Positions 1 through 60,124 of a stretch of DNA of 64,000 bases are shown here, piece after piece. Both the position numbers and the translations under genes were made by a program. Below the pieces are notes generated by a model that was given only the letters and a program-made list of their open reading frames with translations, was not told where the DNA came from and made no database searches. The DNA comes from Candidatus Saccharimonadota bacterium (GTDB lineage Bacteria; Patescibacteriota; Saccharimonadia; Saccharimonadales; Saccharimonadaceae), in the NCBI GenBank assembly GCA_017431725.1, contig JAFRKN010000010.1, positions 1 through 64,000 of the forward strand, read 5' to 3'. Position 1 is the stretch's first letter; each line of letters opens with the position of its first letter.

Positions 1-1275
1 AGTCGTCCCATCTGCATCTTTCTTCTCCCCACTAGTTGGATAACCAAGTGTGCCCCATTCAGTGCCAGTCTTAAACCATGCATCAAAAATACCACCAGAT
101 ATCTCCCATGCGCCAGTAGCAGGAGAATAATATATATAACCAAACTCAAATTTTTGCATCGCTCCTTTTCTTACTAAACCACGGTACTCCGAACTTATAG
201 GATAACCCATTTTCCCATTTTCACTTTTTAATTCCCTCCACTTTTCAAAAATACCACCAGACACATCCCAGGCCCCAGTCAAATCAGTCCAATAAATATT
301 TCCTATTTCATATTCCCTAAAACAACCTCCTCTTATCAAATCACATTTCTCCTCTTTTGTAGCTTTTCCTAAAATACTCTGTTCCCCACCAATTAAATAA
401 TAATATGCATTAATAGTAGAACCACTCGTCACCCCCCCAAACCAATCCTCAAAATACAAATAAAAATTCCTATTTCCATACGCCCCACAGGAATCTCCCG
501 TCCCATATCCCGCTGCCAACGCTGAAGCATTTGGCTGATACGGCGTATACCGATAAAGTGCGCTCGTTGCCAAACTCCTAATATTCACCACACTTCCCCC
601 ACACGCAGCCGAAGGATTATATTGCACATAGTTATTTCCTAGCGGATAATTTGTCCATCCCCCATCCAAAACCGTCCTAAACATCGCCGCCGCTTTTCTC
701 ACTTGATTTTTAAACCCATAATATTCGGAACTACACGGCGCCGTATCCGGGCATCCATACCCCGTCGCCGATCTAAATTGACGGTTATTCGGCCAAGAAT
801 CTGTAATCAAACTTTGCTCTTTTTGAAGTAATACAATCAAAACTTGCGGATTAATCCGATAATCCTGCGCCGCCCGATAAATAATCCGCGCCGCCGACTC
901 TCCATTAGGTACTTCCTCTCCATAAGCCGTTCCCTCCCCAAAAGTCTCTTCCGCCAAACACACAAAATGCCCATCTTTTATATGATATGTATAATTCGGA
1001 TAATAACTAGCGAGGTACGTCCTCGTATCCCTACAATTCCCCTTCGCCGTCAAAAATGCTTGAATCTCCACTTCGCTCATCGAATTATAATTGCCCATTT
1101 GATAATCAGAAATTATATAACCTGGATCAAAATTTGCTAAACTTGCCGCCTCTGCCTCATCATCTAAATCTTTGTACTCCTGTGCCAAAAAAGAAAACAA
1201 AAACACCGCCACAAACATCCCCAAAATAATAAACTTTATTCTTCCATCTCTTCTCCGCACCACCTTTTCCACCAT
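1..1275 (-). CDS. secreted LGFP-repeat protein with hydrolase-like N-terminal region (partial)
   Basis: The reading frame is open from an ATG at 1275 to the window edge, so the C-terminus is missing. A hydrophobic segment near residues 14-30 follows a basic start (signal peptide or anchor). Residues about 100-200 carry the pattern LLQKEQ, TGYGCPD and YYGFKNQV, which I recall from actinobacterial surface proteins annotated as hemagglutinin-related or murein-hydrolase-like. Residues about 315-425 hold repeated units with W..LGYP, typical of LGFP wall-binding repeats. The likely role is cell-wall binding or remodelling outside the membrane; catalytic activity is inferred. It starts 2 nt after the stop of the upstream gene, so it is the last visible gene of a leftward operon. 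Its coding strand is strongly G-rich. Confidence 0.75.
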   Translation of the reverse strand, partial: MVEKVVRRRDGRIKFIILGMFVAVFLFSFLAQEYKDLDDEAEAASLANFDPGYIISDYQMGNYNSMSEVEIQAFLTAKGNCRDTRTYLASYYPNYTYHIKDGHFVCLAEETFGEGTAYGEEVPNGESAARIIYRAAQDYRINPQVLIVLLQKEQSLITDSWPNNRQFRSATGYGCPDTAPCSSEYYGFKNQVRKAAAMFRTVLDGGWTNYPLGNNYVQYNPSAACGGSVVNIRSLATSALYRYTPYQPNASALAAGYGTGDSCGAYGNRNFYLYFEDWFGGVTSGSTINAYYYLIGGEQSILGKATKEEKCDLIRGGCFREYEIGNIYWTDLTGAWDVSGGIFEKWRELKSENGKMGYPISSEYRGLVRKGAMQKFEFGYIYYSPATGAWEISGGIFDAWFKTGTEWGTLGYPTSGEKKDADGTT

Positions 1276-3549: not shown

Positions 3550-5205
3550 ATGGAAAAAAATAAATCAATTGATGGGCTTATCTCTCGTCGCTCCAAAAAG
3601 ACGGTTTCTAAAAATACTTCTAAAAATTCTTCCAAAAATCTCTCCTCTAAGCCCTCCAAAAAATCTCCAAAACCTCTTGCTAATCCTTCAAAAGATTCCC
3701 TCAGTTCTTTAGCCGACGAATTTAATTCTTCCTCCGCCCCAAAAGAACCTTCCATAAAATCTCAACCAGTTAACCCCATTGAAGATTTTCTTCAACCAGT
3801 GCAAGCTTTTGATTTTGACGAAAAAACCGGTCAACTTCAAGCCATTCAAAAAACCCCTCATCAAAAACCTAAAAAGGAGAAAAATCCAATTTCTAAAAAA
3901 CGCAAAATTATCGTTGGTATTATTTTAACTATCGTCTTATTAGTAATCGGAGCTATCACTTGGTTGGTTCTCTGGGGCAACGACATTATTGCCAAAATTA
4001 CCGGCGGGCAAGGTAATGTCCTCGATCTTCTTTCTCTCGCCAGTGAAACTTACGAACCTCTAAAAACCGACGAAAATGGTCGCACCAATATTCTCGCCTT
4101 CGGCACCAGTGGCTACAATATGGAAGGCGAGGAAGGCAATGGGGTTCATGATGGCGCCCAACTCACTGACTCTATTATGGTTATCAGTTTAGACCAAGAA
4201 ACTGGTGACATTGCTATGTTGTCTCTCCCTCGTGACCTTAAAGTCTCTGCCACCTGCACCGCCACTAGTAAAATCAACGAACTTTATTGGTGTAATAATA
4301 TGGCAGGCGACAACGAACAAGCCGGCGCCGAAGCCCTAATGTCTGAGGTCAGCAATATTCTCGGACTTGAATTTCAATATTATGCCCATCTTAACTGGGG
4401 CTCCCTCATTCAAATCGTTGACACCTTAGGAGGCATCAATGTCACCCTCGATGAAGATATTTCCGATTACTACTACACTGGAGCCGTTTTTAAAGCCGGA
4501 GTTGAATACACTATCGACGGTGGGCAAGCTCTTGGCCTCGCTCGTGCCAGACATGGTACCACCAGTGGTGATTTTTCTCGTGGAGCTTCTCAACAAAAAA
4601 TTCTCATCGGCATTAAAAACAAAGTTTTCGAAAAAAATCTTTCTCTATCCGAAATTATGAATCTAGCCTCCACACTCGGCGACAACCTTCGTACTAACTT
4701 CTCCCTCGAAGAGATGAAAACCTTAGCTCATCTCACCTCCAATTTTGATTTCGACACCATCCGCCAAGTTTCCCTTATCGAACCCAATCGGCTCATGACC
4801 ACAGGTAATATCAACGGCATTTCTTATGTTTTACCATCAGGCGGCGCTAATTATTATCTCAAAATTCAAGAATATGTCGCCAAAATGTTTTCTAGTGATC
4901 CTCGCACTTATGAAGAGTCTACTATTTTAGTCTTAAATGGCAGCAACGAACCAGGCGTTGCCTCTATCGAAAAAACCGCCCTTGAGGAAGCCGGCTACTC
5001 CAACATTTATATTGACGATGCCCCCGCAGGCGAATACCCCAACGGCTACACGCTCTACTTTATTACTGATATCGCTCCGGGCACCAAAAAACTCCTTGAA
5101 GAAAAATATAATCAAACCGCCAAATCCACCGAAGAACTGCCCGAAGATATTTCCACCGACTACGATTTTGTGATCATTATTGGCAGTAAAGATAAAACTA
5201 ATTAG
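3550..5205 (+). CDS. LytR-CpsA-Psr (LCP) family wall-polymer ligase
   Basis: The product is 551 aa. A Ser/Lys-rich cytoplasmic region (1-118) precedes one transmembrane helix (about 119-142). The LCP catalytic domain covers about 170-400, with NILAFGTSGY, DSIMVISLD, LSLPRDLKV and GLARARHG motifs that bind the polyprenyl pyrophosphate and the metal. A LytR C-terminal domain (about 455-545, ILVLNGSNEPGVA) follows. LCP enzymes transfer glycopolymers from lipid carriers to peptidoglycan outside the membrane. The start has a TATAAT ending 8 nt upstream and no ribosome-binding site, so the mRNA is probably leaderless. The 3' end lies inside the arm of an inverted repeat shared with jag. Confidence 0.9.
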   Translation: MEKNKSIDGLISRRSKKTVSKNTSKNSSKNLSSKPSKKSPKPLANPSKDSLSSLADEFNSSSAPKEPSIKSQPVNPIEDFLQPVQAFDFDEKTGQLQAIQKTPHQKPKKEKNPISKKRKIIVGIILTIVLLVIGAITWLVLWGNDIIAKITGGQGNVLDLLSLASETYEPLKTDENGRTNILAFGTSGYNMEGEEGNGVHDGAQLTDSIMVISLDQETGDIAMLSLPRDLKVSATCTATSKINELYWCNNMAGDNEQAGAEALMSEVSNILGLEFQYYAHLNWGSLIQIVDTLGGINVTLDEDISDYYYTGAVFKAGVEYTIDGGQALGLARARHGTTSGDFSRGASQQKILIGIKNKVFEKNLSLSEIMNLASTLGDNLRTNFSLEEMKTLAHLTSNFDFDTIRQVSLIEPNRLMTTGNINGISYVLPSGGANYYLKIQEYVAKMFSSDPRTYEESTILVLNGSNEPGVASIEKTALEEAGYSNIYIDDAPAGEYPNGYTLYFITDIAPGTKKLLEEKYNQTAKSTEELPEDISTDYDFVIIIGSKDKTN

Positions 5206-5357: not shown

Positions 5358-5812
5358 CCCGTCTTACTGATTATAAGCTTCCGTTCTCTTCCTTCCCCCT
5401 CCGAATGCGTCTCAATATCCGAATAATCTTGTGCAAATTTATGTACCACTCGACGATCCGCCGCATTCAAATTCAGTTCCATTGGCTCCCCCGTCTCACG
5501 CACTTTCTTTATCCACCCTTCCGCTTTTTCTTCAATTCTATCTGCTCTCTGCCTCTTATAATTTGCTACGTCAACATTCACCCTTACTACTTCCGCTTCT
5601 TTTGAAACTAAAGCCATCGAAACAATATGCTGAAGCGCTCTTAGATTATCCGCATTCCGCCCAATAAGAAGCGAGTTTAGTGAAGTCGAAGGCACCGACA
5701 ATTGAATTACTTCATCATCAATTGTCGAACTTACTGCCACATTAATCCCAAAAAAACTGAGTAAGTCTTCCAAGTACCTGGCGGCAAACCTGATTGATTC
5801 ATCTTTATTCAT
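5351..5812 (-). CDS. jag: KhpB/Jag (EloR-like) RNA-binding protein, KH plus R3H domains
   Basis: The product is 153 aa. A KH domain covers about residues 15-80 (LLIGRNADNLRALQHIV as the GxxG-type region) and an R3H domain about 90-150 (MELNLNAADRRVVHKFAQ). The N-terminal Jag_N domain of Firmicutes homologues is missing. KhpB binds RNA with KhpA and influences cell elongation in streptococci. The gene follows yidC by 3 nt with a good AAAAGGAG site, in the classic rpmH-rnpA-yidC-jag order. The final codons form an arm of a long palindrome. Confidence 0.9.
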   Translation of the reverse strand: MNKDESIRFAARYLEDLLSFFGINVAVSSTIDDEVIQLSVPSTSLNSLLIGRNADNLRALQHIVSMALVSKEAEVVRVNVDVANYKRQRADRIEEKAEGWIKKVRETGEPMELNLNAADRRVVHKFAQDYSDIETHSEGEGRERKLIISKTGN

Positions 5813-13671: not shown

Positions 13672-14973
13672 ATGATTAAAGTTGAAAAAATTATTCCCGG
13701 CGGCCAAGCACTTGGCACTCATGATGACGGTCGAAAAATTTTTTTCTGGAACGCCCTGCCAGACGAGTTGATTGAAGAATTCAAAATCACTAAAAAGAAA
13801 ACCCATTATTATGAAGCTATCGCCACTAAAATCAAACAGCCATCTAGCCATCGTATTGCACCAAAAGACGAGTGTTTTTTATCAACTTCTCCGTGGCAAA
13901 TCTTAGATTTTTCCTATGAAAATCATCTCAAAAAAACCTTAGTTAATGAAATTTTTAATGCACATAAAATTAAAATTGAATCCCCCGAAATTATTACCGA
14001 CAATCAAAAATATTTTTATCGCAACAAAATGGAATATGCTCTCTACTGGAATCATGGAACTCAAAAAATTCACCTTGCCTTTCACGCTCGTGGCTCTCAC
14101 CAAAAAATTCCTATCAAGCAGTCCTCTCTTGAAAGACCTGAAATTTTTGCTACAGCAGAAGCCATAGTTAATAATTTGAATATTCTTCAAGACGAAGCCC
14201 GTCGTTATCAATCACTTCTTTTAAGGTGTAACCAAAACGGTGAAGTTTCTGGCGGACTCTTTGAAAAACACAAACCTCACCCCGTATTTAAAAATCTCAC
14301 CGATCAAATTTTAGGTCAAAATTATTCTTACTCTCCTAATGGTTTTTTTCAAATTAACCTCCCTGTTTATGAACTTGCCCTAAAAGAAATTCAAAAACAC
14401 ATTCATACCGACAAAGTTCTCGATCTCTACGCTGGTGTTGGCACTATTGGTCTCTCCACTGCCCGTCACAAAAAACTCACTCTCGTCGAATCCGACCAAT
14501 CTGCCTTTTCAGAACTAGCTGAAAACTGCAAGAGGAATGAGTTCGAGGGAATCCGGCAGGTCAGTACCATTTTCGAGGAGCATATTTTTCGACAAAACTG
14601 CAAGAGGAATGGGTTCGAGGGGATCCGGAGTTACGACGAGGACGAGCGCGCCGACCCCGTGACGACGGGCGTCGGCGACGCGCCCCGAGAGCCCATTCCT
14701 CTTGCAATATTTAGCAAATCCGAAAATGTCACAGACTTTATCGAACCCGACCAAACTGTTATTCTTGATCCTCCTCGCGCCGGTTGCGACCGCAAATTAA
14801 TCGATAAATTAAATGAAATTAGGCCAAAAACTATCATTTATCTTTCTTGTAATCCTGCCACTCAAGCTCGCGACGTTAAATTATTATTAGAAAACTATCA
14901 AATTAAACATATCCAACCTTTCAACTTTTTTCCTCGCACTCCTCACATTGAAAACCTAGTTGTTTTGTGCTAA
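13672..14973 (+). CDS. TrmA/RlmD-like RNA m5U methyltransferase with in-frame palindromic insert
   Basis: The product is 433 aa. The SAM motif is VLDLYAGVGTIGLS, the catalytic cysteine region IIYLSCNPATQARD, and the DPPRAG motif VILDPPRAGC. FFQINLPVYELAL is also characteristic. These enzymes methylate C5 of uridine in tRNA or 23S rRNA; the exact substrate is unclear. Residues about 284-345 are not part of the fold: they are encoded by a palindromic element inserted between the SAM acidic motif and DPPRAG. The native ENxKRNG motif is present twice because part of the element is a direct repeat. TATAAT ends 8 nt before the ATG, so the mRNA is probably leaderless. Confidence 0.85.
   Translation: MIKVEKIIPGGQALGTHDDGRKIFFWNALPDELIEEFKITKKKTHYYEAIATKIKQPSSHRIAPKDECFLSTSPWQILDFSYENHLKKTLVNEIFNAHKIKIESPEIITDNQKYFYRNKMEYALYWNHGTQKIHLAFHARGSHQKIPIKQSSLERPEIFATAEAIVNNLNILQDEARRYQSLLLRCNQNGEVSGGLFEKHKPHPVFKNLTDQILGQNYSYSPNGFFQINLPVYELALKEIQKHIHTDKVLDLYAGVGTIGLSTARHKKLTLVESDQSAFSELAENCKRNEFEGIRQVSTIFEEHIFRQNCKRNGFEGIRSYDEDERADPVTTGVGDAPREPIPLAIFSKSENVTDFIEPDQTVILDPPRAGCDRKLIDKLNEIRPKTIIYLSCNPATQARDVKLLLENYQIKHIQPFNFFPRTPHIENLVVLC
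14521..14706 (+). repeat. in-gene palindromic element, composite, methyltransferase locus
   Basis: The arms are 14599-14616 and 14689-14706 (17 of 18 pair; left arm begins TGCAAGAGGAATGG). The core 14617-14688 is 72 nt, GC-rich and identical to the core in valS; it includes CCCCGTGACGACGGG and a GCGCCGACC/GGGCGTCGGCG-type stem. Upstream lies a direct repeat of the arm and core start (14522-14554 versus 14598-14632) separated by a piece resembling the ATPase-locus core (TCGAGGAGCATATTTTTCGA). The whole stays in frame with no stop. Confidence 0.85.
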
Positions 14974-20618: not shown

Positions 20619-23381
20619 ATGAGATTTAGTAGTAGTTATGAACCGGGGGAATATGAAAGTGATATTTACGCTGCCTGGGAAACCAGCGGCATTTTTAATC
20701 CAAAAATGACCACTTTACCTGTCGATAATAACGACGATGGTATTGACGACCGTGAAGAAAATATTTCTGATTCTAAAACCTTTTCTATCGTCATGCCACC
20801 ACCAAACGCTAATGGTAATTTACATATTGGTCATGGCTTAACTATCGCTCTCGAAGATTCCCTTACTCGTTACTATCGCTTAAAAGGCCGTTCGTCTTGG
20901 TATATTCCTGGTGCCGACCATGCTGGTTTTGAAACCTGGGTCGTCTATGAAAAAGAATTAGAAAAATCCGGTCATACTCGTTTTGAATATTCACGTGATG
21001 AGCTTTATGCTCGCGTCTGGAATTTCGTCGCCGAACAACGCGGCAATATGGAACTCCAACTTCGAGCCCTAGGCGCCTCCTGTTCTTGGGATGATTTAAC
21101 TTTTACTTTAGATGAAAATGTTATCGACCGTGTCTATACGACTTTTGAAAAAATGTGGAATGATGGTTTAATTTATCGAGGGGAAAAACTCGTTAATTTT
21201 TGTCCAAAACACCAAACCGCTTTTGCCGATATCGAAGTTGAGCACGAAGACGAAAAAGGTACTCTTTGGGACATCGCCTATAAACTAGTCGAAGAGCCAA
21301 AAGATGCATCTTTAGCTCTATCTCGAGAGATTATTGTTTCTACCACTCGTCCCGAAACCCTCTTTGGCGACGTCGCTGTGGCAGTAAATCCTAATGACGA
21401 ACGCTACAAAGATTTAATTGGCAAACACGTCGAATTGCCTTTAACAGATAGAACTATCCCTATTATCGCTGATGAACACGCCGACCCCGAATATGGCACC
21501 GGTGCTGTCAAAATTACCCCAGCTCACGATTTCGACGATTTCGAAGTCGGCGAACGCCATCATCTCGAACGCATCCAAGTTATTGCCGAAGACGGCACGA
21601 TGATTAATGTTCCCGAAGAATATAACGGTTCAACTACAGCAGAATGTCGCAAAAAAGCCCTCAAAAATCTTAAAGAACAAGGCCTCTTAAAAGGCGAGAA
21701 AAAAATCGAGCATACCGTAGCGCATTGTTATAAATGTGGCACCACTATCGAGCCAATGCTTAAAGAACAATGGTTTATTGATGTCGAAAGACTCGCCAAA
21801 ACTGCCATCGAACATCTAGAAAATAATGAAATTAAATTCTATCCCGATAACAAAAGAAAAATTCTGATTGATTATCTCAAAAACTTAAAAGACTGGAATA
21901 TCTCTCGCCAAATTCCCTGGGGTATTGCCATTCCCATGTTTAGAAAAATTGACGATCGCGCCACCGACGAGCCAGAGTGGATTTTTGATCGCAGAACCAA
22001 TCTAAAAGAAATCGAAAAAGCTGGTGTTAAATATATTCGCGACGAAGATACTTTTGACACTTGGTTTTCTAGCTCTCATTGGCCTATTGTCTGTACCAAC
22101 TGGACCGAAGAAAATTATAACCCCTATTATCCTCTCAATGTTATGGAAACTGGCGCCGATATCCTCTTCGCTTGGGTTGCCCGGATGATTATGATGGGGA
22201 TTTACGTTACTGGCGAAGTTCCTTTCCGCGAAGTCTATCTTCACGGTCTCGTTCTCGACGCTCACGGTAAAAAAATGAGTAAATCTAAGGGTAACGTTAT
22301 TAATCCTATGGATCTCGTTACCAGATATGGTTCCGACGCTTTCCGTTTAGGCATTCTAAGGGGTCGTTCTGCCGGCATGAACCAAGCCTTCTCCGAAAAC
22401 TCAGTTATTTCCGGTCGTAACCTCTGCAATAAACTCTGGAACATCTCCCGCCTCATCCAATCTCTCGTCGATGAAAACGAGCAAAGCGAGCGAGAAAATC
22501 TTATTTCTGAGGGGATCCGGAGTTACGACGAGGACGAGCGCGCCGACCCCGTGACGACGGGCGTCGGCGACGCGCCCCGAAGAAATAATGATTTCTCGCT
22601 CGCGTATTCTACCCTCAACATGGGCGAAGACTGGATCTGTCGCGAAATTAATGATTGCTTGAAACAGGTCGAAAAAGATATGAAAGCCTACCGCTTTGCC
22701 GAAGCCGTCGAAATTCTTTACCAGACCATTTGGGATAAATACGCCGATTGGTTCTTAGAGAGCCAAAAAATCTATAAAAATACGGAACTCTTAAAGATCA
22801 CTCTAGAGATGCTACTGATTGCTCTCCACCCCTTTGCCCCCTTCGTTACCGAAACAATCTGGCAGAATCTTTCTTGGACCGAAGGCTTTATTGCCACCGC
22901 TAAATGGCCCGTAAAACTTCAATACGACCCAATTTCCGCCGAGAATTTTGAAAACATAAGAATTATCGTATCTGAAGTCAGAACGACCTTACAGAGCCTG
23001 CCAGGCACTAATAATAGCAAAAAATATAACCTTCTTTATGACAACGATAGCCTCGTAGATGATAACCGACTCCTTATTCAAACCCTGTCGAAGGTCCCAG
23101 CCATTAACCCTCTTGATGGTTCCCCACGCGGCCTCCGACTCGCTCTGGTTAATCACGAACTTTATCTCGACGTTTCCGAAAAAGTTGTTACTACATACAA
23201 AGACACTTTAACCGAAAAAATTCTTAGCACCGGTCGTGAGCTAAATGCTCTTAACGCTCGTATGATGAACCCAAATTACATCAAAAAAGCCCCAGAGCAT
23301 CTTGTTAAAGAAACCGAAGATGCTATCAGGGAGAAAGAATCCCTAATCAATCGTTTGAAACAGCAACTCTCCCTTATCTAA
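20619..23381 (+). CDS. valS: valyl-tRNA synthetase with in-frame palindromic insert
   Basis: The product is 920 aa. Class I signatures are GNLHIGHGL (HIGH) and KKMSKSKGN (KMSKS). The editing domain holds GTGAVKITPAHDFDDFEVG, and a C-terminal coiled coil is present. It charges tRNA-Val. Residues about 623-662 are encoded by a palindromic element inserted just after the catalytic core, at the junction with the anticodon-binding domain, a position likely to tolerate a loop. The 24 residues from its core are identical to those in the methyltransferase at 13672. TATAAT ends 6 nt before the ATG. Confidence 0.95.
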   Translation: MRFSSSYEPGEYESDIYAAWETSGIFNPKMTTLPVDNNDDGIDDREENISDSKTFSIVMPPPNANGNLHIGHGLTIALEDSLTRYYRLKGRSSWYIPGADHAGFETWVVYEKELEKSGHTRFEYSRDELYARVWNFVAEQRGNMELQLRALGASCSWDDLTFTLDENVIDRVYTTFEKMWNDGLIYRGEKLVNFCPKHQTAFADIEVEHEDEKGTLWDIAYKLVEEPKDASLALSREIIVSTTRPETLFGDVAVAVNPNDERYKDLIGKHVELPLTDRTIPIIADEHADPEYGTGAVKITPAHDFDDFEVGERHHLERIQVIAEDGTMINVPEEYNGSTTAECRKKALKNLKEQGLLKGEKKIEHTVAHCYKCGTTIEPMLKEQWFIDVERLAKTAIEHLENNEIKFYPDNKRKILIDYLKNLKDWNISRQIPWGIAIPMFRKIDDRATDEPEWIFDRRTNLKEIEKAGVKYIRDEDTFDTWFSSSHWPIVCTNWTEENYNPYYPLNVMETGADILFAWVARMIMMGIYVTGEVPFREVYLHGLVLDAHGKKMSKSKGNVINPMDLVTRYGSDAFRLGILRGRSAGMNQAFSENSVISGRNLCNKLWNISRLIQSLVDENEQSERENLISEGIRSYDEDERADPVTTGVGDAPRRNNDFSLAYSTLNMGEDWICREINDCLKQVEKDMKAYRFAEAVEILYQTIWDKYADWFLESQKIYKNTELLKITLEMLLIALHPFAPFVTETIWQNLSWTEGFIATAKWPVKLQYDPISAENFENIRIIVSEVRTTLQSLPGTNNSKKYNLLYDNDSLVDDNRLLIQTLSKVPAINPLDGSPRGLRLALVNHELYLDVSEKVVTTYKDTLTEKILSTGRELNALNARMMNPNYIKKAPEHLVKETEDAIREKESLINRLKQQLSLI
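22486..22603 (+). repeat. in-gene palindromic element, valS locus
   Basis: The arms are 22486-22508 and 22581-22603 (20 of 23 pair; left arm begins GCGAGCGAGAAAATC). The core 22509-22580 is identical over 72 nt to that at 14617-14688, although the arms share nothing with the arms there. The open reading frame is kept and the conserved hairpin CCCCGTGACGACGGG is read as Pro-Val-Thr-Thr-Gly. Confidence 0.9.
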
Positions 23382-25571: not shown

Positions 25572-28022
25572 ATGAGTCTTTCTGGTCTGTCAAGTGCTGA
25601 AGTAGCCGCCAAAATTAAACAGGGAAGAACCAACCAAATTCCCCGTCAAAATTCCCATTCAATTCAAAAAATCATCACGCGCAATCTATTTACCATTTTC
25701 AACCTCGTTAATCTTATCCTTGCCCTGATGGTTTTATTTGTTGGCTCCTACAAAAATCTTCTCTTTATTTTTATTGCTATCGCCAACACCCTCATCGCTA
25801 TTGTCAATGAAATTCGCGCTAAAAAAACCATCGATAAAATGCGCCTTTTAGCCGAGCAACGACCCACTGTCATCAGGGATGGCAAAAATCTCCAAATCGA
25901 CCCAAACGAAATTGTCGACGGCGACCTCCTTATTTTTGGTCTTGGCGACCAAATTCTTGTCGATTCCGAAATCAAAGAGGGCACAATTGAAGTTAACGAA
26001 TCTTTCATCACTGGCGAATCCGACAACATCAAAAAACAACCTGGCGATAAACTAATCTCTGGTAGCTTTGTGGTTTCTGGCATCTGTAAAGCCACCGCTA
26101 TCTCTGTTGGCGCAGAGAATTATATCTCAAAACTCGAATCTTCCGCTCATACCATCAAAACGGCCGACTCCAAACTCTTCAAAATCATGAACAACATTGT
26201 TAAATACATTTCTTTTGTTCTTATCCCTATCGGCGCTCTTCTCCTCTGGTCACGTTTTCGCATCGAAGGCGAAACCACCGAAATTGCTGTCACCTCTACC
26301 GTCGCTGCTCTCATCAACATGATCCCAGAAGGCCTCATCCTCTTAACCTCCTCTGTCCTCGCCCTCTCCACTATTCGTCTCAGTCGCCAAAAAGTCCTCG
26401 TTCAAGACCTCTATTCTATCGAAACTCTTGCCCGTGTCGACTGTATCGCTCTTGATAAAACCGGCACCTTAACTACCGGCAATCTGACCGTAAAAAATTT
26501 TATTCCAGTCAGTGATGGCAAACTTCTTTCCCCTACCGACCTCAAAAATCCTCAAAATCGCGCCGAAAAAGCCCTTCAGAACACACTAAAGCTTATTTTA
26601 AGCCACGACACAGCAAACAACGCCACTTCTACCGCCTTAAAAGGAGAACTCCTCAAAAATACCAAATTTGAGCCCACAGAACAAATCCTAGAGACAATTC
26701 CTTTCTCTTCCGATCGCAAATATTCCGGCGTCAAAACTAAAAAAGCCATCTACCTCATGGGCGCCCCCGAATTTCTCACAGATCAAAAATACGACATAGA
26801 AGGGAATTACCGCATTTTGGCTGTTGTTAAATGCGAGGAATACCCTCGTTCGAGGAGCATATTTTCCGACGGGGAAAATACGGAGCGAGCTCTCCCCGTA
26901 ACGACGGGCGAGAGCGAGCGTTCCGAGAACGACGGGTATCCTCGCATTTCGTCAAAGTTGATAGGTCTTATTTTATTCGAAGATGAACTTCGCAAAGACG
27001 CCAAAAATATTATCAACTATTTCTATGACAACGATGTTGATATCAAAATCATCTCTGGCGATAATCAAAACACTGTCGAAAACATTGCCGCTTTGGCTGG
27101 TGTTAAAAACATCAATAGTATTGATCTCTCTAATCTAAAAACCCCTATCGATTATGATAAACTTGTAGAAGACTACAACATCTTCACCCGTGTCAAGCCC
27201 AGCCAGAAAAAATCTCTCATCCTTGCCTTAAAAAAACAGGGGAAAACAGTTGCCATGACTGGTGATGGCGTCAACGATATCCTCGCCATGAAAGAAGCCG
27301 ATTGTTCCATCGCTATCGGTGAAGGCTCCGACGCAGCGAGAAAGTCTGCCAAACTTGTCCTCTTAAGCTCCGACTTTTCCGCTTTCCCTAAGATTATCGA
27401 CGAGGGCCGCCAAACCATCAACAATCTTGAGCGTTCCACGGCGCTCTTCCTTGCTAAAACCGTCTATGCTAGCATCCTTGCCGTTCTCTTCGTCTTTCTC
27501 CCCTTAAGATATCCTTTTACCCCCATCGAAATGACCCTTCTCAACTTTACCTGTATTGGATTCCCAGCTTTTATCCTCGCTCTCGAAAAAAACACCGACC
27601 GCATCAAAAATCGTTTTGCCAAAAACATCATGCAATATTCCGTCCCTATTGGCCTCACCGTCACAATTTGCACCCTTATTCTTTCAATTCTCGCCCACGT
27701 CAACGATTTTTCGCATTTCGAGCTCACCACTACTTCAGTTTTCGTTACCTTCACGATTGACCTTATTCTCATCTATTGGATTTCTCGGCCCCTCAATCTG
27801 CTCCGCGCAACTCTTCTTCTCACTATCATTGGCATCATGGTTGCCACCTTCCTTATCCCCTTTACTCGCCAATTCTTCGAATTCACTTTCCTCACCGAAA
27901 ACGGTCTGGTTGTTACCATCTCCGTCGCCGCTATCGGTATTCTCATTTTCGCCATCATCCGTCGCCTGATGTACCGCCTCTCCGCCCGTGTCTTCAAAAC
28001 CCGCCCACATTTAAATCTTTAA
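25572..28022 (+). CDS. P-type cation-transporting ATPase (CtpE-like) with in-frame insert
   Basis: The product is 816 aa. The phosphorylation motif is DKTGTLTTG, the actuator TGES motif is present (FITGESDNIKKQ), and the hinge motif is MTGDGVNDILAMKEADCSIA. The transmembrane segments, including MIPEGLILLTSS, and NLERSTALFLAKTVYA resemble actinobacterial CtpE, a calcium transporter; ion specificity is inferred. Residues about 420-460, in the nucleotide-binding domain, derive from a palindromic insert. Translationally coupled to femX. Confidence 0.88.
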   Translation: MSLSGLSSAEVAAKIKQGRTNQIPRQNSHSIQKIITRNLFTIFNLVNLILALMVLFVGSYKNLLFIFIAIANTLIAIVNEIRAKKTIDKMRLLAEQRPTVIRDGKNLQIDPNEIVDGDLLIFGLGDQILVDSEIKEGTIEVNESFITGESDNIKKQPGDKLISGSFVVSGICKATAISVGAENYISKLESSAHTIKTADSKLFKIMNNIVKYISFVLIPIGALLLWSRFRIEGETTEIAVTSTVAALINMIPEGLILLTSSVLALSTIRLSRQKVLVQDLYSIETLARVDCIALDKTGTLTTGNLTVKNFIPVSDGKLLSPTDLKNPQNRAEKALQNTLKLILSHDTANNATSTALKGELLKNTKFEPTEQILETIPFSSDRKYSGVKTKKAIYLMGAPEFLTDQKYDIEGNYRILAVVKCEEYPRSRSIFSDGENTERALPVTTGESERSENDGYPRISSKLIGLILFEDELRKDAKNIINYFYDNDVDIKIISGDNQNTVENIAALAGVKNINSIDLSNLKTPIDYDKLVEDYNIFTRVKPSQKKSLILALKKQGKTVAMTGDGVNDILAMKEADCSIAIGEGSDAARKSAKLVLLSSDFSAFPKIIDEGRQTINNLERSTALFLAKTVYASILAVLFVFLPLRYPFTPIEMTLLNFTCIGFPAFILALEKNTDRIKNRFAKNIMQYSVPIGLTVTICTLILSILAHVNDFSHFELTTTSVFVTFTIDLILIYWISRPLNLLRATLLLTIIGIMVATFLIPFTRQFFEFTFLTENGLVVTISVAAIGILIFAIIRRLMYRLSARVFKTRPHLNL
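26829..26949 (+). repeat. in-gene palindromic element, ATPase locus
   Basis: The arms are AAATGCGAGGAATACCC (26829-26845) and GGGTATCCTCGCATTT (26934-26949). The core has two hairpins: GGAGC-ATATTTTCC-GAC-GGGGAAAATACGGAGC, and CTCCCCGTAACGACGGGCGAG. The second carries the family motif, again read as Pro-Val-Thr-Thr-Gly. The AGCGTTCCGAG tail recurs at the second argS element. Confidence 0.85.
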
Positions 28023-30197: not shown

Positions 30198-30236
30198 TCA
30201 TATGACATTCATATGACAAACATATGACATGTCATA
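30198..30236. repeat. 39-bp direct repeat, downstream copy flanking fic
   Basis: This perfect copy of 31622-31660 consists of three spaced CATATGACA units and ends ATGTCATA. It overlaps the last codons and TGA stop of fic. Confidence 0.95.
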
Positions 30237-31581
30237 CGTCTTTTTCAAAAATCTGCTCTTTTACATTATTTTCTATCTTGTATGAAACATTTTTCCCGTC
30301 ACTATATGAAAAAACCAACCCCAACTCTTTTAATGCCTTTAAATCTCTATACGCAGTCCTTAGTGCTACACCATGCATCAAGCTATAAGACGTTCCACTA
30401 GTTGATATGTCATTTCCACTAGCCAAAAATTTTAACGTGTCTACCTGCCGACTATTTAACATTGGATATTTCGTTCTAATAATCACGCTGACCCCCTCAT
30501 TCTCTGACTTCTTCTTTTCTATATGTTCATTAAAAGCATTAATTGCCTTCAAAACACACCTCAAATTATAATCGTAGAAATATGTAAAATCATAATCATC
30601 CTGTTCTGCATAAATATATGCGTACGCGTAAGAATGTTGAGATCTTTTTAATATCATTGAGATAGGTATATATCCAATTGCCCAATAATTATGTCTAAAC
30701 AAATACCAATAAAATACCGCCCGTGCCAACCTACCATTTCCATCAGGGAAAGGGTGTAAATAACCAATCCAAAAATGCAATTGAATTGCTTTTATCACTG
30801 GGTGGATAAAATCCGAATCATCATTCGCGTAAGCAACTAGTCGTTCCAATTCATATTTAACAAATTCAGCTTTCGGCGGTACATGAGCGACCATTGCGTC
30901 ATAGTTCACTACAATTTCGTCGCTGTCTTTTCTTAGTTCTCCAGATTTATATTCATCATCTAGTGTTTTTTCCGTCAACTCACTTTGTAAAGTTTGCAAC
31001 AAATACAATGATAATTCACGATCTTTATATTCGTTCTCGATTTTTTTCATTACTCTATAATTATTTACTATCATTTGTTCGCTCTTATTGCGAGGCCTGA
31101 TTTTTTCGGTCAACATTTTTTTTGCATATTTGCTCGCCGTATCTGCCCCTTCTAGCTGGCTAGAAGCAATTGATTCTTCAACAATGCCTCGTGCCAAATA
31201 TTTTTGACGGTTATTAACTTGAACCGTTGTCGTTGTATCCGCCAAAAAGGCTCCACCCATATACATATCTATTTCTCGTAAATATTTATCCGTATATAAA
31301 GGTCGATACCACGTAAAATAAATACCTTTTTCGGATTTAACTGGAATTTCTACAGAAGAGATTTTTCTAATCTGCCTTATAAGATACCATGCATCGCCCG
31401 ATCGATTAAGATGAAATTTTGCCTTATCCCAATAAAGATATTCTTTGTTTGATACTCGATTAAACATTTTTTCTACTACAGACCGATTTTCTCCTAAAAG
31501 ATAACCAAGCAATAGCTTTGAGCCATGTTCTTTTTCTACCTCTGGCGGGGCTTCGATTTTTATCCGTTCATTCTCATACAT
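30232..31581 (-). CDS. Fic family protein (probable AMPylator) with C-terminal winged helix
   Basis: The product is 449 aa. The catalytic Fic motif is HPFPDGNGRLAR (about residues 274-285), and an N-terminal inhibitory helix motif SSQLEG at about 136-141 fits the (S/T)xxxE(G/N) class. The C-terminal region (about 370-445) looks like a winged helix. Fic enzymes transfer AMP or other moieties to protein hydroxyls; the target is unknown. The gene lies exactly between perfect 39-bp direct repeats, and its stop codon is inside one of them, suggesting a mobile cassette or self-binding operators. Confidence 0.9.
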   Translation of the reverse strand: MYENERIKIEAPPEVEKEHGSKLLLGYLLGENRSVVEKMFNRVSNKEYLYWDKAKFHLNRSGDAWYLIRQIRKISSVEIPVKSEKGIYFTWYRPLYTDKYLREIDMYMGGAFLADTTTTVQVNNRQKYLARGIVEESIASSQLEGADTASKYAKKMLTEKIRPRNKSEQMIVNNYRVMKKIENEYKDRELSLYLLQTLQSELTEKTLDDEYKSGELRKDSDEIVVNYDAMVAHVPPKAEFVKYELERLVAYANDDSDFIHPVIKAIQLHFWIGYLHPFPDGNGRLARAVFYWYLFRHNYWAIGYIPISMILKRSQHSYAYAYIYAEQDDYDFTYFYDYNLRCVLKAINAFNEHIEKKKSENEGVSVIIRTKYPMLNSRQVDTLKFLASGNDISTSGTSYSLMHGVALRTAYRDLKALKELGLVFSYSDGKNVSYKIENNVKEQIFEKDV

Positions 31582-31621: not shown

Positions 31622-31660
31622 TCATATGACATTCATATGACAAACATATGACATGTCATA
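31622..31660. repeat. 39-bp direct repeat, upstream copy flanking fic
   Basis: This is identical to 30198-30236. It lies about 40 bp upstream of the fic start, with another partial unit (CATATGACA) at about 31600. That position suits an operator or promoter as well as a recombination site. Confidence 0.95.
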
Positions 31661-39386: not shown

Positions 39387-39406
39387 AGAATCTACTTTAC
39401 ATTTCT

Positions 39407-39517
39407 AGCACTCAAATGTTTATTTGTGGGGGCATCCGCAGTTGCTGCGAGGACGCAGCGAGGAGCCCCGTGAAGACGGGCGCGACGAGCGTCCCCACAA
39501 ATAAACATTTGAGTGCT
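39407..39517 (+). repeat. intergenic palindromic element with perfect 25-nt arms
   Basis: The arms are 39407-39431 and 39493-39517 (25 of 25 pair; left arm begins AGCACTCAAATG). The core 39432-39492 carries GCAGTTGCTGC and CCCCGTGAAGACGGGCGC, the family hairpin. It occupies the tlyA-pilM gap. Confidence 0.9.
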
Positions 39518-39574
39518 TGCATTATTAAAGCTTGGCGCACAGTCATCACGAATAAAAACTACCTTATGTTTTCT

Positions 39575-39605
39575 AACACTTAAATATTTATTTGTGGGGG
39601 CATCC
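39575..39605 (+). repeat. degenerate extra copy of the left arm of the 39407 element
   Basis: AACACTTAAATATTTATTTG plus TGGGGGCATCC matches the left arm and the first core bases at 39408-39437, in the same orientation. Similarity also extends about 15 nt upstream. The rest of the core and the right arm are missing. Confidence 0.75.
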
Positions 39606-58327: not shown

Positions 58328-60124
58328 ATGCAAGAAATTGAAACTAGTCTTAAAAAAGTTATTCAAGGCCTTTACGATCTCGATTTTGATCCCGAAATTA
58401 CTCCTTCGCCCGAAAATATCGACGCCGATTATTCTTCAAACGCTCCGCTCAAGCTTGCCAAAATACTCCACAAATCTCCCCTAGACATCGCCAGAGAAAT
58501 AGAGATTAATTTTGGAACTTTAGAGACCGTGCCCCGCGAGCCTTACGAGGCGAGCGAAGTGAGTGAGCCCCGTAACGACGGGCGCGAACGAACGAGGTCG
58601 AAAAAGTTCAAAATTAGTCTCTCTTCTCCTGGCTTTATCAATTTTACTTTGTCCGATGATTACTTATTGAACGCCGTTAAAGATTTAAACGAAAATTTTG
58701 CAAGAAGTATTTCTAGCAACGAATTTAAAGGCAAGACTGTCGTCTGCGAATTTAGCGACCCCAATCCCTTTAAAGTCCTTCACGTCGGCCATCTCTATAC
58801 TAGCATTGTTGGTGATTCTATCAGTCGACTTTTTGAATATGCTGGTGCAAAAGTTATTCGGGCTAACTTTGGTGGCGATGTCGGCCTTCACGTCGCTAAA
58901 ACCATGTATATTTTAAAACAAAAGAATCTAGATGATTTAACTATTGAAGATATTGCGAAATGCTACGTTGAGGGTACCTCCGCCTACGAAGAAGATGAAA
59001 AAGCCAAACAGGAAATTACCGAACTCAATAAAGAAATTTATAAAATCAATTCCGAAAATATTCACGATTCTGATCTTGCCAAATTATACTGGAAGGGCAG
59101 AGAATTATCTTACGATTATTTTAATCAATTTTACGATTCCATCGGTGTAAAATTCGATAAGTATTATCCTGAGTCTACCGTTGCCGAACTTGGAACCAAA
59201 AAAGTAAAAGAAGAATTAGAAAATGGTGTTTATGAAGAATCTAACGGTGCCATTATTTTCGACGGTAAAAAATTCGGCCTCCACACCCGTGTTTTTATCA
59301 ATCAAGCGGGTGTCCCGACTTACGAGACCAAAGACGTTGGTTTAATTTTTACTAAATGGGATGATTATCATTTTGATAAGTCTGTTATCATCACTGGTTC
59401 CGAGCAACTTGAATATATGAAAGTCGTTCTCAAGTCTATTGAACAATATGCCCCTGAATTAGTAGAAAAAACTAGCCACTTAACTCACGGCCTAGTTAAA
59501 CTTCCTGGTAACGTTAAAATGTCATCTAGAAAAGGAAACTTTCTCAGGGCTGTTGATGTCATTAGTCTAATCCGCGAAGAGCTAAAAGATTCCTATGGCT
59601 CAACTGACGACACCATTTCTCTCGCCGCTACTAAATACGCTTTTCTCAAATATAAAATGGGCGGCAACATCATTTTTGATCCAAAAGAATCCGTTAAAAT
59701 GACTGGCAATTCTGGCCCCTATCTCCTCTACTCTTGTGTCAGAGCCAAGAAGATTTTGGCGTCTGCAAATGATGCTTTTGAGGAGCATAATCGCCGACGG
59801 GGCGATTACGGAGCGACCGAAGCCCGTAACGACGGGCCTGAGGGAGCGTTCCGAAAAAGCATCATTGCAGATGCAGAGCGTAATCTTATTAAAAAGATTC
59901 TTGAATACAAGACGTTGTTGCAGGAGGCGGTCAAAGAAATGGCTCCGCACAAAGTCGCCAATTATTTATACGAACTTGCCCAATCTTTTTCCCGCTTCTA
60001 TGAAAACTGTCCTGTTATCGGCTGTAATCGCGAATCCGAACGTCTCAAACTTGTTAAAATTTATCTAGAAACTATGGCCCACGGGCTAAATATTTTAGGA
60101 ATTAAAATCCCAGAGGAGATGTAA
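58328..60124 (+). CDS. argS: arginyl-tRNA synthetase with two in-frame palindromic inserts
   Basis: The product is 598 aa. The HIGH motif is FKVLHVGHL, the KMSKS-like motif MSSRKGNF, and an Arg-N-like domain opens the protein. DALR-type C-terminal helices end LNILGIKIPEEM. Residues about 60-97 (end of the Arg-N domain) and about 479-515 (start of the anticodon-binding domain) come from two different palindromic inserts, read as Pro/Ala-Arg-Asn-Asp-Gly at the hairpin, a different frame from that in valS. TATAAT ends about 8 nt before the ATG. The stop overlaps the orn start. Confidence 0.94.
   Translation: MQEIETSLKKVIQGLYDLDFDPEITPSPENIDADYSSNAPLKLAKILHKSPLDIAREIEINFGTLETVPREPYEASEVSEPRNDGRERTRSKKFKISLSSPGFINFTLSDDYLLNAVKDLNENFARSISSNEFKGKTVVCEFSDPNPFKVLHVGHLYTSIVGDSISRLFEYAGAKVIRANFGGDVGLHVAKTMYILKQKNLDDLTIEDIAKCYVEGTSAYEEDEKAKQEITELNKEIYKINSENIHDSDLAKLYWKGRELSYDYFNQFYDSIGVKFDKYYPESTVAELGTKKVKEELENGVYEESNGAIIFDGKKFGLHTRVFINQAGVPTYETKDVGLIFTKWDDYHFDKSVIITGSEQLEYMKVVLKSIEQYAPELVEKTSHLTHGLVKLPGNVKMSSRKGNFLRAVDVISLIREELKDSYGSTDDTISLAATKYAFLKYKMGGNIIFDPKESVKMTGNSGPYLLYSCVRAKKILASANDAFEEHNRRRGDYGATEARNDGPEGAFRKSIIADAERNLIKKILEYKTLLQEAVKEMAPHKVANYLYELAQSFSRFYENCPVIGCNRESERLKLVKIYLETMAHGLNILGIKIPEEM
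58505..58618 (+). repeat. in-gene palindromic element 1, argS locus
   Basis: The arms are 58505-58528 (begins ATTAATTTTGGAACTTTAG) and 58596-58618; about 18 positions pair with a bulge. The core contains GCGAGCCTTACGAGGCGAGC and CCCCGTAACGACGGGCGC. Open in frame. Confidence 0.8.
59762..59871 (+). repeat. in-gene palindromic element 2, argS locus
   Basis: The arms TCTGCAAATGATGCTTTT (59762-59779) and AAAAGCATCATTGCAGA (59855-59871) pair apart from one bulge. The core GAGGAGCATAATCGCC-GAC-GGGGCGATTACGGAGCGA then GCCCGTAACGACGGGC closely parallels that in the P-type ATPase gene. Confidence 0.85.

Follow-up and report, generated by a model that had tools for sequence, protein, structure and literature searches.

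Short palindromic elements in protein-coding genes of gut Saccharibacteria and a possible inverted duplication of their insertion sites

The closest described systems to the elements reported here are the Rickettsia palindromic elements (RPE), which form several families, interrupt metabolic genes of a reduced genome without breaking the reading frame, and are read through as an extra peptide, each family having its own conserved sequence and peptide, with no host-derived arms described in the two papers (PMC10969869, PMC3733652). Similarly, REP-like repeats have also been found within ORFs (PMC3733652). In mitochondria, the translated genes of Nematomorpha contain perfect inverted repeats, both arms of which encode conserved protein, and the palindromic byp elements of Magnusiomyces interrupt many essential genes and remain untranslated through ribosomal bypassing, as described for both in PMC6649704.

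The elements analyzed here were recognized in a stretch of 64,000 nucleotides (the window) from a Candidatus Saccharibacteria genome of 752 kb in 18 contigs, in which the elements and their parts are given on the plus strand. In valS, a 72-nt core (22509-22580) is predicted to be Y-shaped, with a tandem-GA junction, a small 5' hairpin, and a main hairpin of CCCGT-GACG-ACGGG, and it is flanked by a locus-specific left arm of approximately 23 nt (22486-22508), which has the bulged A that is typical of the family, and by its inverted counterpart on the right (22581-22603), the left arm reading GCGAGCGAGAAAATCTTATTTCT and the reverse complement of the right arm GCGAGCGAGAAATCATTATTTCT. A second copy lies in a gene for a TrmA-like (tRNA uracil-5-) methyltransferase, with a left arm at 14599-14616, a core at 14617-14688, and a right arm at 14689-14706, the outer part of which (PLAI) matches relatives with an empty site. 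As had been claimed in an earlier note on this DNA, the two cores are identical (72/72 nt).

The same note stated that the arms are unrelated between these loci and that each arm has its match only in its partner at the same locus, and this was borne out by the inverted-arm scores, which are 36 in valS and 33 in the methyltransferase gene and fall to 7.5 and 9.5 when the arms are exchanged between the two loci. The random background, taken from 4,000 window positions, has a mean of 8.5 and a 99.9th percentile of 23, and one of the sampled positions equaled the valS score, which may be the valS locus itself. Across 139 elements of eight core subfamilies, with arms of approximately 20 nt and a complementarity of around 91%, the median score of an element with its own arms is 29 vs. 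10 for arms exchanged within the subfamily, and 92% of the own-arm scores exceed the 99th percentile. The arms are imperfect complements, usually with a one-base bulge. Their specificity to the locus holds overall but not throughout, since, for certain subfamilies, some of the bases closest to the core are part of the element itself, such as CTCTTC/GAAGA in type B, and one long arm, GCGAGGAATACCCTCG, is common to four type A copies of the genome, with few outer bases differing.

Other elements are found in the same window, including a type A element with long arms, in frame within a P-type ATPase gene (26829-26949), a type B element, the arms of which are 36 nt long, located between ftsJ-like and pilM-like genes (39396-39528), and two elements in frame in argS. 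The first argS element (58499-58624) corresponds to an empty 42-nt site in four relatives, and the second (59759-59874) is shared with a related genome (G003), in which the core is identical and the arm changes are compensated. Apart from these elements, an exact 39-nt direct repeat, TCATATGACATTCATATGACAAACATATGACATGTCATA, is present at 30198-30236 and 31622-31660, bounding an ORF at 30232-31581, and a 70-nt repeat is found at the start of the window (83-314) in two copies (71%), 162 nt apart.

The hairpin-pattern search returned some 30 copies in the 752-kb genome, with more than 170 elements in the genus as a whole and copies in 21 of 22 same-genus genomes, and only a single hit was obtained in other families of the order (G049), which we take as chance. 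The DNA pattern of the core matched at least 116 stretches of GTDB r220, and, among the matches listed, 80 of 80 are from Candidatus Saccharibacteria, mostly of ruminant-gut origin. The host genes include valS, leuS, ileS, argS (two sites), aspS, gatB, obg, mnmA, nifS, and dus, as well as queA, tgt, rarA, uvrD, miaA, and others, with names assigned from the sequence and, for the window only, confirmed against Pfam. Ten copies belong to a second core family of unrelated sequence (GGACCGTAAGCTTGGGCGAGCGCCCTTGAGCGTGTCC), in which the arms are built in the same way. When RNAalifold was run across all core types, it aligned the main hairpin together with the pairs flanking it and nothing else, and the Rfam search returned tRNAs alone at the gathering score, with nothing close to the threshold at the element. 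In two loci (L046, 3222-3333, and L336, 6871-6971), class I cores are split by a different GC-rich sequence of short length (CGCCCCTTGGGACGCG...), and one element appears to be nested in another. At the orthologous sites of leuS (L135 and L070) and rarA (L193 and L169), the elements lie in opposite orientations and have similar arms.

Like RPE, these are short palindromic repeats of several families that are inserted in frame, given that all 79 of the occupied sites compared keep the frame and contain no stop. The RPE arms are conserved along with the whole repeat. This does not hold here, where the conservation in the subfamily profiles drops sharply at the ends of the core, and the left arms beside the core are 39% identical across the loci of one subfamily, with far more conserved cores. 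Unlike RPE, approximately 20 nt on each side are specific to the locus in the Saccharibacteria elements, and one side appears to be an inverted copy of the host sequence. The elements also resemble those of the REP/REPIN type, which are mobilized by RAYT (Y1) transposases, in being short mobile hairpins with a non-autonomous spread, and they differ from that type by their locus-specific arms and by the lack of a Y1 transposase in 18 same-genus genomes. The byps, on the other hand, are not translated, and as every insert here is in frame and free of stops, neither RNA splicing nor ribosomal bypassing is needed. A miniature transposon (MITE) would have short direct target repeats and conserved terminal inverted repeats. 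The flanking repeats described here, which leave room for direct repeats of a few bases, are inverted and locus-specific. No element known to us makes an inverted duplicate of its target, and no transposon known to us acts in this way.

The reading that we prefer, with a probability of roughly 0.6, is that these are mobile short palindromic elements of one genus of gut Saccharibacteria, found in frame in protein-coding genes, and that each insertion adds the core together with an inverted copy of the neighboring host sequence, approximately 20 nt in length. This was examined by searching for the flanks of the host genes in related genomes and extracting the sites, which gave 18 sites in conserved genes, with 79 occupied and 71 empty orthologues. 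The difference in length between the occupied and empty sites, minus the core, was divided by the length of the arm, so that a ratio of 1 is predicted for a single duplicated arm, 0 for a palindrome that was already in place, and 2 for a palindrome imported whole. The earlier note had proposed this comparison, expecting the empty site to contain only one arm, and the length gained is indeed that of one arm and not two, with a median ratio of 0.94 (95% CI 0.80-1.26; based on 16 sites with 40 class I elements), or 1.07 when the median is taken over the 16 sites. A separate boundary method, applied to 49 occupied sites, found one arm to be the closest prediction in 30 cases, a whole palindrome in 17, and a pre-existing palindrome in two, and the outcome that would have refuted the note, i.e., empty sites that already have both arms, is thus absent in aggregate.

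The peptides encoded by the arms offer a second line of evidence. The reconstructed arms are more like the peptide of the empty orthologue than shuffled arms are (mean z of 0.91, n = 98 arm tests), and part of this signal comes from arms that reach into conserved flanking residues, which by itself identifies such an arm as host sequence. Where the evidence is clearest, the host-like arm is on one side only, being the right arm in argS, obg, and leuS, and the left arm in aspS and rarA. The left arm of rarA reads KEGIIIE vs. KEDIVIE at the empty site, for example, and the arm in obg reads RERILLADL vs. RDGEIIADL. The preferred reading is also favored by the excess of own-arm over exchanged-arm scores, the sharp ends of the core, the shared arm architecture of the second core family, the preserved frame of all 79 inserts, and, as described below, the partial copies and the compensated arm changes. 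All the comparisons are between species, with no more than approximately 77% nucleotide identity in valS, and involve fast-evolving loops, so individual cases are seldom decisive. The loop in valS varies too much for the native arm to be picked. In the methyltransferase gene, the left arm had been thought to be native, but the relatives favor the right arm (PLAI, z of 2.66) over the left (z of -0.64), and this locus has an additional 72-nt direct duplication, which complicates its analysis. The inverted duplication of the target, as first proposed, is therefore supported in aggregate but not for every copy, given that around one third of the sites fit a whole palindrome by length and that valS is undecidable.

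The sites that fit a whole palindrome leave some room for the possibility that the whole palindrome is mobile, with the core and both arms coming from a donor and the locus-specific appearance reflecting a fast divergence of the arms. The 17 of 49 sites that fit by length and lack a native arm, the ratios in mnmA, which are well above 1, and the long arm common to the four type A copies all point in this direction. As an account of the family, it is nevertheless unlikely, given that the median ratio is close to 1 rather than 2, that the left arms of a subfamily differ between loci far more than the cores do, and that the arms continue into conserved host residues.

The history of the arms after insertion bears on another possibility, in which the core arrives with short arms or none, the long arms being formed afterwards through template-switch correction between the flanks and kept for some function of a bulged-stem RNA or DNA (e.g., processing, or recognition by a structure-specific enzyme). 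In the orthologous elements, 15 arm pairs have double-compensated changes and eight have one-sided changes, which implies that the arms are either corrected or selected. In addition, a bulged base is found on the 5' arm of the element, 7-14 nt from the core, in 96 of 171 cases, 86 of which are purines, vs. 18 of 171 with a comparable position on the 3' arm. The alignments show this bulge for each of the two core families, whether a copy is coding or intergenic, and it is present in the valS copy of the window. It tracks the orientation of the element and not the native arm, with which the leuS pair in opposite orientations agrees. The idea that the native arm is always the 5' arm, the bulge being a one-base deletion in the copy, was ruled out, given that the native side varies.

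Both the compensated changes and a recurrent bulged purine linked to the orientation favor later correction, as does a parallel with the coding palindromes of Nematomorpha, which are likewise inverted repeats in translated genes with arms kept complementary, template switching being the maintenance proposed; no mobile conserved core is described for them, unlike the Saccharibacteria elements, the arms of which are short, bulged, and placed around such a core (PMC6649704). Correction of this type would overwrite the flank and add only the length of the core, however, and the gain observed is the core plus one arm, which makes it an improbable origin for the arms. The insertion of the core into quasi-palindromes with both arms already native, for which short inverted repeats in the sole empty leuS site (G023) and in the short methyltransferase site of another genome (G018) could be cited, as well as the methyltransferase copy of the window, which could fit by length if its 72-nt direct duplication is excluded, was rejected in aggregate and retains very little plausibility, as it predicts a ratio of 0 and fits only two of the 49 sites.

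Under the preferred reading, that an inverted copy of the host sequence is added together with the core, the resulting order, in which the core is followed by an inverted copy of the host arm that precedes it, is the product expected from foldback priming, and hairpin-primed copying is inferred to be the best fit. The core would become joined to the 3' end of the target and, being self-complementary, would fold back into a hairpin, the 3' end of the core then priming synthesis across approximately 20 nt of the strand that carries it. The extension product would rejoin the opposite flank, and later template switching inside the palindrome may maintain the complementarity of the arms. Hairpin-primed copying, one of the two mechanisms suggested at the outset, remains the one that best fits the product, by inference only, and it does not account for the recurrent bulge, which is unexplained by plain copying, as this predicts perfect arms.

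Partial copies, of which there are around half a dozen cases, may also be informative, given that what they retain of the core is mostly its 5' portion, in many cases next to a directly repeated left arm. Near the methyltransferase element, the left arm and the first bases of the core are found at 14522-14556 and again at 14594-14628, and the left arm of the type B element, followed by GTGGGGGCATCC (39402-39437), is repeated directly at 39570-39605. Other examples are found in argS of one genome (G018) and at locus L327, and queA of the former genome has a truncated core alone. This asymmetry suggests, in small numbers, that the strand of the element is synthesized in the 5'-to-3' direction and that its synthesis may end prematurely. 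The partial copies could also come from slippage at a hairpin that was already present.

No dedicated enzyme was found for these events, for which the Y1 transposase and reverse transcriptase were examined. The Y1 transposase of the RAYT type was rejected, given that PF01797 is absent from 18 same-genus genomes and that the same search detects it both in control genomes and in further families of this order. Reverse transcriptase is present in 13 of 18 same-genus genomes vs. one of 12 others. Two of its loci have template and variable repeats that differ nearly always at one base type and look like diversity-generating retroelements, and no repeat was found at two further loci. Given this resemblance, and two genomes with elements and no reverse transcriptase (G003 and G004), it is disfavored as the dedicated mobilizer, although it is enriched in the genus. 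The near-identical retroelement repeats lie beside a reverse transcriptase at 4899-5012 and 5692-5805 of locus L212 (G000 contig C8), with a second pair at 4461-4656 and 4936-5131 of L216, and nearly all of their differences affect T in the strand given, corresponding to A in its complement. It is possible, although this is held only tentatively and at somewhat less than even odds, that several hairpin cores of unrelated sequence are mobilized by one trans-acting system of the Saccharibacteria, which, at each insertion, would copy approximately 20 nt of the target in inverted and bulged form.

No Saccharibacteria palindromic insertions were found reported in the open-licence literature, which is weak evidence of their absence. 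Direct target repeats are the usual hallmark by which transposition is recognized. A mobile family that leaves inverted repeats of the host sequence would point to an undescribed route of DNA integration, and, if the trans-acting system does exist, it would be marked by target duplication in inverted orientation, in contrast to known transposons, the duplications of which are direct. The many occupied and empty sites make the mechanism testable. Finally, these elements rewrite the loops of essential proteins, such as tRNA synthetases, Obg, and tRNA modification enzymes, in abundant gut episymbionts.
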